Source: Armatimonadota bacterium (GTDB lineage: Bacteria; Sysuimicrobiota; Sysuimicrobiia; Sysuimicrobiales; Kaftiobacteriaceae). Taken from it: a DNA stretch of 42,422 nt. The stretch lies in assembly GCA_016193565.1 (NCBI GenBank), contig JACPRY010000004.1:1-42422 (forward strand). The letters are read 5' to 3'. Shown one piece after another: positions 28,949 through 35,698 of this stretch (the stretch's first letter is position 1; each line of letters begins with the position of its first letter). The notes beneath the pieces were generated by a model that ran no database searches, was not told the DNA's origin, and worked only from the letters and a program-made list of their open reading frames with translations. Position numbers and translations under genes: made by a program.

Positions 28949-31645
28949 TCACTTGGACTGCTCGAGCTGCCGGAGGATCTGTCCGAGCCGTTCGATCTCT
29001 CGCGCATATCCGGCGAAATCGCTCTGCCGCAACAGCTGCTCGGCGCGGTCGTAGCTCTCCAGCGCCTGAGCGATGAGCTCATCGCGCGTTGACGGACCCG
29101 GCGCGGGCGGTGCTCCCGGCGACGGTTGCGCCGGTGGCGCGCGTCCCAGCAGCCGGGCGATCGCGCCGTCGAGCGTCTCGTCCATCACGATCCTCGGCCC
29201 GCTGGCCACGATGACACGCTTCAGTTCCGGCAGCTGGCTGCGCTCCGCCTGCAGGAACAGCGGTTCGACGTACATCAGCGCGTCTTCCATCGGGATGACC
29301 AGCAGATTGCCCCGGATGACCCGCGACCCTTCCTGGTTCCACAGCGTCAGCTGCTGCGAGATGACCGGGTCCTGGTTGATGCGTGACTCGACTTGCATCG
29401 GCCCGAAGGCCAGGCGGTCTTTGGGGAACCTGTAGACCACCAGCTCGCCGTACCGGGGACCGTCGTTGCGCGCGGCCATCCAGGCGATGAGGTTGTCGCG
29501 CCCGGCCGGGACGAATGGCAGGATGAGGATGAACTCCGGCCGTGGATCATTCGCTAACCGCATCGTCACGTAGTATGGCTCCACGAGGACGGTCTCGTTC
29601 CCAAACAGTTCCGTGGGCACCGCCCACACGTCTTCCCGGTTGTAGAAGACGCGCGGGTCCTTCATGTGGAACGTCGCGTACATCCGCGCCTGGATCTCAA
29701 AGAGGTCGACCGGATAGCGCAGGTGCGCCACCAGCTCCGCCGGCATCTGCGATGCCGGTTTGAACAGTTCCGGGAAGATCGAAGCGAAACTCCGCGCAAG
29801 GGGATCCGCCGGATCGACCACATAGAAGTCCGCGGTCCCGTCGTAGGCGTCGATGATGACCTTTACCGAGTTGCGGATGTAGTTGACGCCGACCTCAGGC
29901 GCCGGCGTCGCATACGGGTAGCGGTTCGACGTTGTGTACGCATCGATCACCCACTTCAGGCGACCACCGGCCAGCACGACGTACGGATCGCGGTCATAAG
30001 ACAGGAACGGCGCCAGGCGGCGCACGCGCGTGGTGATCTCCCGCGCGAACATCAGCCGGCTGCTGCTCGTGACGTCAGAGGAGAGCAACAGCCTCATGTC
30101 ACCGAAGCGATACGCAAAGGCAGCTCGGCGCAGCCGCGTCAGCGGGATGCCTCCCCGCCCGGCATACGAGGTATAGACGTTCTCGTCGCCCCTGGGATAG
30201 TCGAGCTCCTGTACCCGCGTATTCACGATGACATACCGGCCGGTGTGCTCCCCGAAATAGATGGCGGGCTGCGACACCCGCAGCCCGGCTTCTCCCACCG
30301 GAGGGATGTCCTTGAGAAAGAACTCCGGCATCCCCTCTTCCGACGCGCGGTTGACCGGGCTCATCACGAGGCCATACCCGTGCGTGAACACTAGATGCTC
30401 GTTCACCCAGGTGCGCGCCTGCGGGGCCAGCCGGCCGGGGTCCAGTTCCCGCGCGGACAGCATCACTTGGCGCTGCACGCCGGCGATACGGTACCGGTCG
30501 ATGTCCACGTCGCCGAACAGGTAATATGGGCGCAGGGTCTGCAGCTGCCGGTAGGCGCTCAACAGCGGCCGGTAGTCCCACAACCGGACATTGTCCACCG
30601 TCGGACGGTTGCGGGACACGAGTTCCGCTGTAACCGGCTCGGCCGAGAACACCTGCTCGCGAACGCGGTCCAGCCCAAAGGCCTTCAACGTCGACGCGAT
30701 GCCGTACCGGATATACGGCGTCTCCACCGTCAACTCGTTGGGGGAGACGCGGAACTGCTGGACGAACCGCGGGACGACGCCGAGACCAATCACCCAGGCG
30801 AGGGCGATGACGAGGATCACGCCGACGGCCGGCCGCAGCGTGCGTCGCCGCACGTTGATGAACAGCAGAGCGGCGCAGACCACAAAGAGCACCGTGAGCA
30901 GACGCAGCGCCGGCAGGACGGCGCGCACGTCGGTATATCCGGCGCCGACGATCGCGCCGCGCTGAGAGTACTCGATTGAAAACGCGTCGAGCCAGAACCC
31001 CCATCCGCGCACCAGGACGATCGCGCCGGCCAGCAGGCTGAGGTGCGCGCGGACCTGAGCAGGAAGCGACCACACGCCGCGCAGCATCATAGGCGTGTAC
31101 CTGAGATAGTACGCCGCCGCGGCCGCCAGGAAGATGAGCATGAGCCACCCAAAGAGCCACGACTCCACAAACTGGTACACAGGGAGCCGGAAGACAAAGA
31201 AACCGACGTCACGACCGAAGATCGGATCGGTGACGCCGAAGGGCTGGGCGTGGACGAACTGCTGGAACATCGGCCACTGCGCGGACGCGGCCAGGCCGCT
31301 GAGGAACGCGATCAGAGCCAGGACGGCGATGACGATCCCGCCGAACCACGGGCGCCGGATGACCCGCTTGAACTCGCGGCCGCCCCGGCCGCGCGGCTCC
31401 AGATCGATGATGTCGTCCAGCGGCGGCCGGCGCAGCAGCGGCCGCAGGTTCACGATGAACAGCGCAAATAGCGTGCCGCCCACGACCACCGTCACGCCGA
31501 TCCGCGAGAGCAGCGGCACCCAAAACACGCGGCGGTAGCCGACTTCCCCAAACCACAGCCAGTCGGTGTACCAGCGCGACAGCGTCGGCGCCAGAATGAA
31601 GAACACGAAAAGCAGGATCAGCAGGCTCAGTCGAATTCGCATCAT
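28949..31645 (-). CDS. UPF0182 family membrane protein
   Basis: 898 residues, the usual length for COG1615/UPF0182. The N-terminal third has about seven membrane segments, beginning LSLLILLFVFFILAPTLSRW and including the family stretch WYTDWLWFGEVGYRRVFW. A large soluble domain follows, with VETPYIRYGIASTLKAFGLD and NEHLVFTHGYGLVMSPVN, and a Pro-rich linker leads to a helical C-terminus. Function is unestablished in the family. ATG at 31645 (MMRIR) or 31642, with GAGG upstream. Divergent from the DUF59 gene with only 38 bases between starts. Confidence 0.95.
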   Translation of the reverse strand: MMRIRLSLLILLFVFFILAPTLSRWYTDWLWFGEVGYRRVFWVPLLSRIGVTVVVGGTLFALFIVNLRPLLRRPPLDDIIDLEPRGRGGREFKRVIRRPWFGGIVIAVLALIAFLSGLAASAQWPMFQQFVHAQPFGVTDPIFGRDVGFFVFRLPVYQFVESWLFGWLMLIFLAAAAAYYLRYTPMMLRGVWSLPAQVRAHLSLLAGAIVLVRGWGFWLDAFSIEYSQRGAIVGAGYTDVRAVLPALRLLTVLFVVCAALLFINVRRRTLRPAVGVILVIALAWVIGLGVVPRFVQQFRVSPNELTVETPYIRYGIASTLKAFGLDRVREQVFSAEPVTAELVSRNRPTVDNVRLWDYRPLLSAYRQLQTLRPYYLFGDVDIDRYRIAGVQRQVMLSARELDPGRLAPQARTWVNEHLVFTHGYGLVMSPVNRASEEGMPEFFLKDIPPVGEAGLRVSQPAIYFGEHTGRYVIVNTRVQELDYPRGDENVYTSYAGRGGIPLTRLRRAAFAYRFGDMRLLLSSDVTSSSRLMFAREITTRVRRLAPFLSYDRDPYVVLAGGRLKWVIDAYTTSNRYPYATPAPEVGVNYIRNSVKVIIDAYDGTADFYVVDPADPLARSFASIFPELFKPASQMPAELVAHLRYPVDLFEIQARMYATFHMKDPRVFYNREDVWAVPTELFGNETVLVEPYYVTMRLANDPRPEFILILPFVPAGRDNLIAWMAARNDGPRYGELVVYRFPKDRLAFGPMQVESRINQDPVISQQLTLWNQEGSRVIRGNLLVIPMEDALMYVEPLFLQAERSQLPELKRVIVASGPRIVMDETLDGAIARLLGRAPPAQPSPGAPPAPGPSTRDELIAQALESYDRAEQLLRQSDFAGYAREIERLGQILRQLEQSK

Positions 31646-33961: not shown

Positions 33962-33990
33962 TTGACAGGCCGACAGGTGCCCGGTATCCT
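33962..33990 (+). promoter_or_regulatory. Near-consensus sigma-70-type promoter
   Basis: TTGACA (33962-33967), 17-base spacer, TATCCT (33985-33990). The start point would be near 33997. It drives the structured leader RNA and, by readthrough, the gene at 34310. The -35 lies inside an inverted repeat GGCCTG...CAGGCC (33944-33971). Confidence 0.7.
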
Positions 33991-33996
33991 GGACGC

Positions 33997-34199
33997 GTTT
34001 CCAGCCATCGCCACCCCAGAAATTCGCTGACGCGAATTTCCCGGGGGCCCCGGCAACAGCTTAAGTGGCTGAGAAGAAAGGGGGTGAGGCCGACGATGCG
34101 TAGACTGACCCCGGCCCACCAGAAAGGATTGGCTAATTAGGGACGGACACCGTGTCCGTTCCGGCGTCCTGGCTTGTGGGCCGGGGCGCCTTTCTTTTT
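33997..34199 (+). ncRNA. Candidate structured leader RNA / riboswitch, class unknown
   Basis: About 200 bases between a near-consensus promoter and an intrinsic terminator. Stems seen: GAAATTCGC/GCGAATTTC with loop TGAC (34019-34040), CAGC/GCTG near 34056-34071, GGGGT/ACCCC enclosing ACG/CGT (about 34082-34112), and CGGACA/TGTCCG (34144-34158). Then comes the terminator stem. The downstream gene encodes a wall-associated phosphodiester glycosidase, a context where c-di-AMP riboswitches occur, but the ydaO core blocks do not line up. It could be a new riboswitch class, a known class too diverged to recognise by eye, or an independent small RNA. Confidence 0.5.
34163..34199 (+). terminator. Intrinsic terminator in the leader of the glycosidase gene
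   Basis: Stem GGCGTCCTGGC/GCCGGGGCGCC (34163-34173 and 34180-34190, 11 pairs counting G-U) with loop TTGTGG, followed by TTTCTTTTT. It lies about 110 bases before the start at 34310. Confidence 0.85.
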
Positions 34200-34309: not shown

Positions 34310-35698
34310 ATGTTGCGCTGTCGGCACCTGATCCTCTGGTTTGGCATCGCCGTCCTGCTCACTCCTTCACTTGCTGCGGAATCCGCACCGACTCAGGTGA
34401 CGGATGTCTCGTGGGAGGCAGATGGGCTGGTCGGCAAGGTCGTCATACGCCTCAGCGGCGCGTTCGCATACCGGACCACCGCGTCGCAATCCAGCATTCG
34501 GATCGATCTCTGGCGCGCTCAGCACACCAAATGGCAAGACCTGCCGGTGAACCACCCCTATGTCCGCCGCGTCTATGTGAACCAGATCACCAGTGACGTC
34601 GCGCGCCTACGCATCTACCTGAAGAAGCCCGTCCGGTACAAGACGTTCGTGCGAACCGACCCTGCTATGCTGGCCGTGCAGATCATCCCGCCCTGGATGG
34701 CGACGACAGGGCTGCCCTCCAGTCTTGCCTACGAAAAACTCCGTCTCGCCACGGGCGCCGGCACAACGGCCGTCCACGTGCTGCGGGTCAATCCGCAGGA
34801 TCCCAATCTTGAGATCCGGCCCGTGCTCGCGTCGGATATGGTGGCGGGAAAGGAAACGACGAGCATCATCGCAACCCGCCACGACGCGGTCGCCGGGATC
34901 AACGGGGGGTATTTTGCGGGAGCGGGTCTGCCGCTCGGCATGGTGGTGATCAAGGGTAAATTGATATCGGCGCCACTGCCGCGGCGGTCGGTATTTGCGA
35001 TCTCAAGCGACGGCAAAGCGGTCATCCAATCGTTCGACTTCCACGGCCGCATCGTCACATCCGACAACGACGCCTTGTCGATCTCAGCCGTGAACCGTCC
35101 TCCCCAGGCGGCGGGAGTCGCCGTCTACACCGCGGCGTACGGCCCGCTCACGCCACCGTTTCAGCTCGCGGCCGTCGTGAGGAACGGCGTGGTGGAAAGC
35201 CTGACCTCCGGGCGAATCCTCATCCCTGAAGACGGATACGTGCTCGCGGTCAACGAGGCGGATGCTGGTCTCCTCCTGCAGCTGCACGCCGGAGAGCGGG
35301 TGTGGATGAAACTCGATCTCACGCCCGACCTCGAGGTGATCAGCGCCCTGGGCGGCGGCCCGAGACTCGTCAAGGAGGGGCGCGAGTTCATTCCGTTCGA
35401 CTGGGAATGGTTCTCCCATCGATTGCACCAGAAACGCGCGCCGCGAACCGCCGTCGGCATCACCGAAGCCGGAAAACTGCTGTTGGTCACCGTGGATGGA
35501 CGCAGCCGCCAGAATACCGGGATGACGCTGCGGGAGCTCGCGCAAGTGATGATCAGCCTCAGTGCCCGCGAGGCGATGAATCTCGACGGCGGCGGGTCAG
35601 CCACGATGGTCGTCGGCGGCCGGATCATGAATGAACCTTCCGATGGCCGGGAGCGCCCGGTCGCGTCCGCTCTCATCATCCTCTACCGATCTAGATAA
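34310..35698 (+). CDS. Secreted AMIN-domain phosphodiester glycosidase (NAGPA family)
   Basis: 462 residues. Signal peptide (HLILWFGIAVLLTPSLAA). An AMIN-like domain (about 30-125; VTDVSWEADGLVGKVVIRLS, then IRIDLWRAQ) may bind peptidoglycan. A C-terminal phosphodiester glycosidase domain (about 150-460) has GINGGYFAGAGLPLGMVV, RTAVGI and the signature MNLDGGGSATMVVGG. The family cleaves sugar phosphodiesters and includes exopolysaccharide- and wall-linked members; the exact substrate is unknown. ATG at 34310 with GGAGCG upstream. Preceded by the structured leader and terminator. Confidence 0.92.
   Translation: MLRCRHLILWFGIAVLLTPSLAAESAPTQVTDVSWEADGLVGKVVIRLSGAFAYRTTASQSSIRIDLWRAQHTKWQDLPVNHPYVRRVYVNQITSDVARLRIYLKKPVRYKTFVRTDPAMLAVQIIPPWMATTGLPSSLAYEKLRLATGAGTTAVHVLRVNPQDPNLEIRPVLASDMVAGKETTSIIATRHDAVAGINGGYFAGAGLPLGMVVIKGKLISAPLPRRSVFAISSDGKAVIQSFDFHGRIVTSDNDALSISAVNRPPQAAGVAVYTAAYGPLTPPFQLAAVVRNGVVESLTSGRILIPEDGYVLAVNEADAGLLLQLHAGERVWMKLDLTPDLEVISALGGGPRLVKEGREFIPFDWEWFSHRLHQKRAPRTAVGITEAGKLLLVTVDGRSRQNTGMTLRELAQVMISLSAREAMNLDGGGSATMVVGGRIMNEPSDGRERPVASALIILYRSR

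Follow-up and report, generated by a model that had tools for sequence, protein, structure and literature searches.

The question raised by this locus is what kind of RNA is transcribed between a promoter and a glycosidase gene in the window, that is, in the whole stretch of 42,422 nucleotides that was analysed. A preliminary description had proposed a structured leader RNA of unknown class with the layout of a terminating riboswitch. We find that the element is real, conserved and not in Rfam, and that it has been found convincingly in one phylum only; judging from its sequence, the description that fits it best is that of an element working in the manner of a leader-peptide attenuator. The parts of the locus are the following.

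33962-33990, + strand: promoter of the leader transcript, TTGACA (33962-33967), 17 bases, TATCCT (33985-33990)
34010-34056, no strand assigned: dispersed palindromic repeat inserted in the transcript's 5' portion and found five more times elsewhere in this genome
34077-34087, + strand: extended Shine-Dalgarno sequence AAAGGGGGTGA of the mini-ORF (AAAGGAGGTGA in most relatives)
34083-34092, + strand: region 1, GGTGAGGCCG, which pairs with region 2 to form an anti-antiterminator hairpin enclosing the start codon
34096-34140, + strand: 14-codon ORF MRRLTPAHQKGLAN, with the stop codon TAG at 34138-34140
34109-34120, + strand: region 2, CCCCGGCCCACC, within the ORF, which pairs with region 1 or region 3
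34141-34157, + strand: candidate hairpin right behind the ORF stop, GGACGGACACCGTGTCC, read from sequences and folds
34163-34199, + strand: intrinsic terminator, with a stem of 12 pairs and a 4-base loop at 34163-34190 and the T-run TTTCTTTTT at 34191-34199
34176-34186, + strand: region 3, GTGGGCCGGGG, comprising terminator loop and 3' strand, antiterminator partner of region 2
34310-35698, + strand: gene of a secreted-looking NAGPA-family phosphodiester glycosidase (PF09992 NAGPA, E 1.9e-45)

The promoter TTGACA-17-TATCCT was found as proposed earlier: a pattern scan of the leader region gives one promoter-like site in 800 bp versus 0.1 in shuffles, and 16 of the 20 copies of the element have an upstream promoter-like site, which scores 8.5-10.5 of 12 when bonuses and penalties are counted. 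The terminator stem and its T-run were located likewise. By itself, the terminator pattern is at chance level (0.8 expected per shuffle of this composition); nevertheless, we consider it real because it is conserved with compensatory changes among relatives, all of its cells (100%) being paired in 19 copies and three pairs having changed on both sides. The leader transcript folds better than 200 of 200 dinucleotide shuffles (z = -4.2); within the about 200 stem-rich bases described earlier, 34010-34056 is a dispersed repeat. The hairpin behind the ORF stop can be drawn in the glycosidase-linked copies despite its variable sequence, on the basis of reading and not of covariation.

One could suppose an ordinary intrinsic terminator and a promoter with a chance ORF between them and no regulation, the more so as sequences of this composition often show terminator patterns (the 0.8 expected by chance). 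We regard this as extremely improbable: conservation across families is strong, the end of the ORF is fixed in one frame only, and the terminator carries compensatory changes.

The repeat (GCCACCCCAGAAATTCGCTgrCGCGAATTTCCCGGGGgCCCCGGCA) occurs in six copies in this genome, at 34010-34056 of the window and in L002-L006. The leader of a congener (L008) passes from the promoter to the element without it, and the leaders of relatives also lack it. As a dispersed repeat missing from relatives' leaders, it lies outside the conserved RNA, and the view of the whole leader as a single structured RNA is thereby ruled out. Three copies from one genus of family f3 (L085, L086 and L117) have an additional hairpin-rich stretch between promoter and element, situated where the window has its repeat insertion.

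The search with the leader DNA reached the family and the order of the window, and covariance models built from those copies extended the range; in total, the element was found in 20 of the 43 genomes of the phylum, across families. The order-level and phylum-level searches covered the identical set of 43 genomes; this fits Sysuimicrobiota (CSP1-3), probably the phylum concerned, whose description comprises a single class with a single order (PMC11604079). Among the 343 genomes outside it (386 searched, strict filters) there is no convincing copy, three weak matches of 23.6-26.7 bits being left uncounted, two of which span the terminator part only; viral contigs gave zero matches to the core pattern. 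The weak model matches L118-L123 were excluded on reading as having no Shine-Dalgarno/ORF core, and L021 from the leader-DNA search as an unrelated short match. The leader is present at orthologous loci, as the preliminary description had expected of a genuine element.

No family of Rfam 15 matches at its gathering score across the whole window, in agreement with the unknown class assumed earlier. At a permissive E-value, the leader yields no riboswitch, only BjrC68 (RF02353) on the two 3' hairpins and two matches at chance level. BjrC68 scores 26.2 bits there against a gathering score of 39; it resembles the leader in having two hairpins in succession and a 3'-terminal T-run, but has nothing that corresponds to the part with the ORF and the Shine-Dalgarno sequence.

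The other half of the preliminary description, a small-molecule-binding, terminating riboswitch of a new class, draws support from the expected order of promoter, structured leader, terminator and gene as well as from the absence of an Rfam match. We nonetheless abandon it as very unlikely, because the conserved positions map elsewhere: the core is a Shine-Dalgarno sequence with a 14-codon ORF, and the invariant positions are explained by this sequence, the start and stop codons, the switch strands and the terminator. A separate conserved complex core resembling an aptamer was not seen, and the neighbouring genes have no common metabolite theme.

The extended Shine-Dalgarno sequence, which we take to be complementary to the 3' end of 16S rRNA, is present and nearly invariant in 20 of 20 copies and is followed by a short spacer and the start codon. 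The mini-ORF has 14 codons in 19 of the 20 copies and 15 in one; it starts with ATG (14 copies) or TTG (six) and stops with TAG (11) or TAA (nine). Only in the reading frame set by the start codon is the position of the stop fixed, the first stops in the other frames being scattered; the one outlier in this frame test, probably L086, stems from the frame anchoring of the script. TGA is found at none of the 20 mini-ORF stops versus 30 of 76 (~39%) stops of neighbouring genes; this may hint at a preference for release factor 1 stops and, the copies being related, is only suggestive.

In the encoded peptide, P-A-H is retained save for one P-T-H, and most other codons vary. The substitution test for selection on the peptide gives P = 0.18 over all positions and 0.014 when RNA-paired codons are left out, so a strongly selected peptide is not supported by it. 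Considering this weak support and the variability of most codons, the mini-ORF looks, as far as its sequence tells, more like a place for the ribosome than a functional protein. The ORFs share no run of regulatory codons, and an amino-acid-starvation attenuator was rejected for this reason.

The alternative antiterminator stem envisaged in the preliminary description exists: it is the pairing of region 2 with region 3 (2:3), which uses the 3' half of the terminator and thus destroys it, and which is exclusive with the pairing of regions 1 and 2 (1:2). RNAalifold on 14 copies recovered 1:2 and the terminator, the nine 1:2 pairs all being invariant. For 1:2, 94.6% of the cells are paired in 19 copies with zero compensatory changes; for 2:3, 95.7% of the cells are paired, and three copies show a two-sided change at a single pair. 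The covariation asked about earlier is seen at three pairs of the terminator and one pair of 2:3, and not in 1:2.

The energy difference between the two enforced folds has a mean of -0.1 and an sd of 3.8 kcal/mol over 19 copies, i.e., the folds are near-equal. In chimeras with the variable middle segment swapped between copies, the mean absolute difference is 3.6 versus 2.9 in native copies. Since this balance is similar, it belongs to the conserved helices, and fine-tuning by a co-adapted variable segment is not supported. Three tRNA-linked copies of f3 have partly lost 1:2 and 2:3 and clearly prefer the terminator fold; in the same copies an alternative hairpin, GGUGCG:CGCACC, encloses the start codon.

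Concerning the gene behind the element, the ATG of the glycosidase (34310) lies 110 bases past the T-run; the distance and the NAGPA family agree with what was said earlier, while the AMIN part claimed along with them is a sub-threshold Pfam match at the N-terminus (17.4 bits versus a cut-off of 20.5). A NAGPA ortholog is directly next in 13 of the 20 genomes with the element, often with about 50-60 bases from terminator to start codon and no clear promoter between; the family member G007, where the stretch is masked, is not among the 13. Before the NAGPA gene, one congener (G038) has the promoter and the element (~209 nt), and another (G017) lacks the whole unit. Further upstream, the window contains a large gene for a UPF0182 family membrane protein (28949-31645, - strand, E 4e-292), which other genomes of the family also carry close to the element.

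The remaining seven copies are differently placed. In five genomes of f2 and f3, tRNA-Met comes next, followed by tilS and ftsH where this could be read. A -10 box resembling TATAAT or TATACT stands at a similar distance before tRNA-Met in most genomes without the element too, so tRNA-Met probably has its own promoter. A sixth copy beside these five, that of G031, is truncated where its contig ends. The orphan copy of G020 (L100, 5595-5723) is intact and stops a few bases short of a BNR-repeat gene in convergent orientation, the NAGPA gene of this genome being 9 kb away; both G011 and G020 have an element-free NAGPA gene elsewhere in the genome. By same-strand downstream gene, the 20 copies are thus distributed as 13 NAGPA, 5 tRNA-Met, 1 with a convergent gene instead and 1 cut by the contig end. 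A different small unit was observed upstream of tRNA-Met in family f7 (L137, ~1120-1230, and L138, minus strand). It is common to two genomes, reads CAGCGAGCGCC...AGGATGAGAG-GAGGTAGCTCTTCGGAGCCAACCCGGCTTAACC...GCTCGCTG, has no Rfam match at gathering score and contains a possible 4-codon ORF (ATG AGA GTG/GAG AGG TAG).

Such neighbourhoods raise the possibility that the element is a small RNA gene in its own right, complete with promoter and terminator, and at the same time a mini-mRNA for the 14-codon peptide. It would act in trans via base pairing or the peptide, the adjacent gene being incidental, and the alternative pairing of 5' and 3' parts would control how the finished RNA is translated or how stable it is; this reading is compatible with attenuation. 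Promoter and terminator signals such as the discrete transcript of a dual-function small RNA would need are present in the sequence. The element is found in three unrelated neighbourhoods, one of them without any co-directional downstream gene; the -10 box of tRNA-Met is retained with or without the element; G011 and G020 carry their NAGPA gene apart from it; and rnTrpL/peTrpL is a precedent (PMC7298713). On the other hand, 13 of 20 genomes have the NAGPA linkage at short spacing, the overlap of terminator and antiterminator has an obvious purpose only with something downstream, the peptide sequence is under weak selection, and the orphan copy could be recent. We therefore hold this as a tentative and somewhat improbable alternative; given that the glycosidase follows no more than 13 of the 20 copies, a role of the terminated transcript as a stand-alone small RNA may come in addition. 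A still more speculative combination, which we think rather unlikely, is a phylum-specific small RNA family built on a bistable ribosome-reading module, with its extended Shine-Dalgarno sequence and fixed 14-codon ORF, that would be both an attenuator before a gene and a free-standing trans sensor of the state of translation initiation.

We lean, with modest confidence, towards a ribosome-dependent (leader-peptide) transcription attenuator before the glycosidase gene, with the anatomy of the trp or vmlR type, because the conserved core, an extended Shine-Dalgarno sequence with a 14-codon ORF, points to it. The locus has a short leader ORF with a ribosome-binding site, an intrinsic terminator before the gene presumed to be regulated, and an exclusive antiterminator that uses bases of the ORF (weakened in three tRNA-linked copies). 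Across 20 copies the ORF keeps its length, start and stop although most of its codons vary, the two exclusive pairings are conserved at near-equal energies, and NAGPA is directly next in 13 genomes. Against this, seven of 20 copies have no demonstrated NAGPA gene downstream, one being beside a convergent gene and five before a tRNA with an apparent promoter of its own; 1:2 has no compensatory changes and 2:3 has them at one pair only; the energy balance is no better than that of the chimeras; and 2:3 is weakened in the three tRNA-linked copies. We say that the element works like an attenuator rather than assign it full membership, because the dependent gene is missing in one copy and doubtful in the tRNA-linked ones.

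What the element senses, which way it switches and how it affects NAGPA we infer as follows. If the ribosome is absent, the 1:2 hairpin and the terminator would form, and the transcript would stop near 34199. A normally running ribosome would sit on region 2 during synthesis of the terminator, and termination would follow again. If the ribosome is held on the first codons, region 1 would be covered and most of region 2 free, so that 2:3 could form; by analogy with the vmlR leader, the terminator would then be lost and the polymerase would run on into the glycosidase gene. The reversed logic, with readthrough in the absence of translation, is also possible. Since the amino acids encoded by the early codons are not conserved, the attenuator probably reads initiation or early elongation generally, rather than one amino acid.

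The observation adds an uncatalogued RNA element for a phylum that has seen very few experiments, and presents a leader-peptide module that is retained from family to family next to changing genes. If it is true that the module works with no fixed gene behind it, this would support the view that terminated attenuator transcripts have roles of their own, for which there are so far few demonstrated cases, rnTrpL/peTrpL among them.

Several known systems can be compared. Spot 42 RNA of Escherichia coli, a short stand-alone dual-function RNA encoding a peptide of about 15 residues, resembles the element as a short RNA that also codes for a small peptide; we know of no overlap between a terminator-antiterminator and its ORF. 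The duf1127_1 leader of Sinorhizobium meliloti contains a uORF that reports ribosome availability through its C-rich early codons; Rho presumably brings about termination there, whereas the element has an intrinsic terminator (PMC12218461). In the same species, rnTrpL/peTrpL is an attenuator transcript that encodes a leader peptide of 14 aa, both RNA and peptide acting in trans (PMC7298713). It is like the element in being an attenuator-type transcript with a 14-residue ORF; it differs in regulating trp genes and in beginning directly at the ORF start codon, and the element has no clustered tryptophan codons. Trans action is established for rnTrpL/peTrpL, and the element is known here from its sequence. 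The vmlR leader of Bacillus subtilis combines a uORF within an anti-antiterminator hairpin, a pause hairpin, a terminator and an alternative antiterminator (PMC9226507). It controls an antibiotic-resistance ABCF factor in another lineage, whereas the element precedes the NAGPA glycosidase in 13 of 20 copies, has its Shine-Dalgarno strand as one arm of the hairpin and a 14-codon ORF, and includes copies without a fixed target gene; the order of the parts is the same in both.
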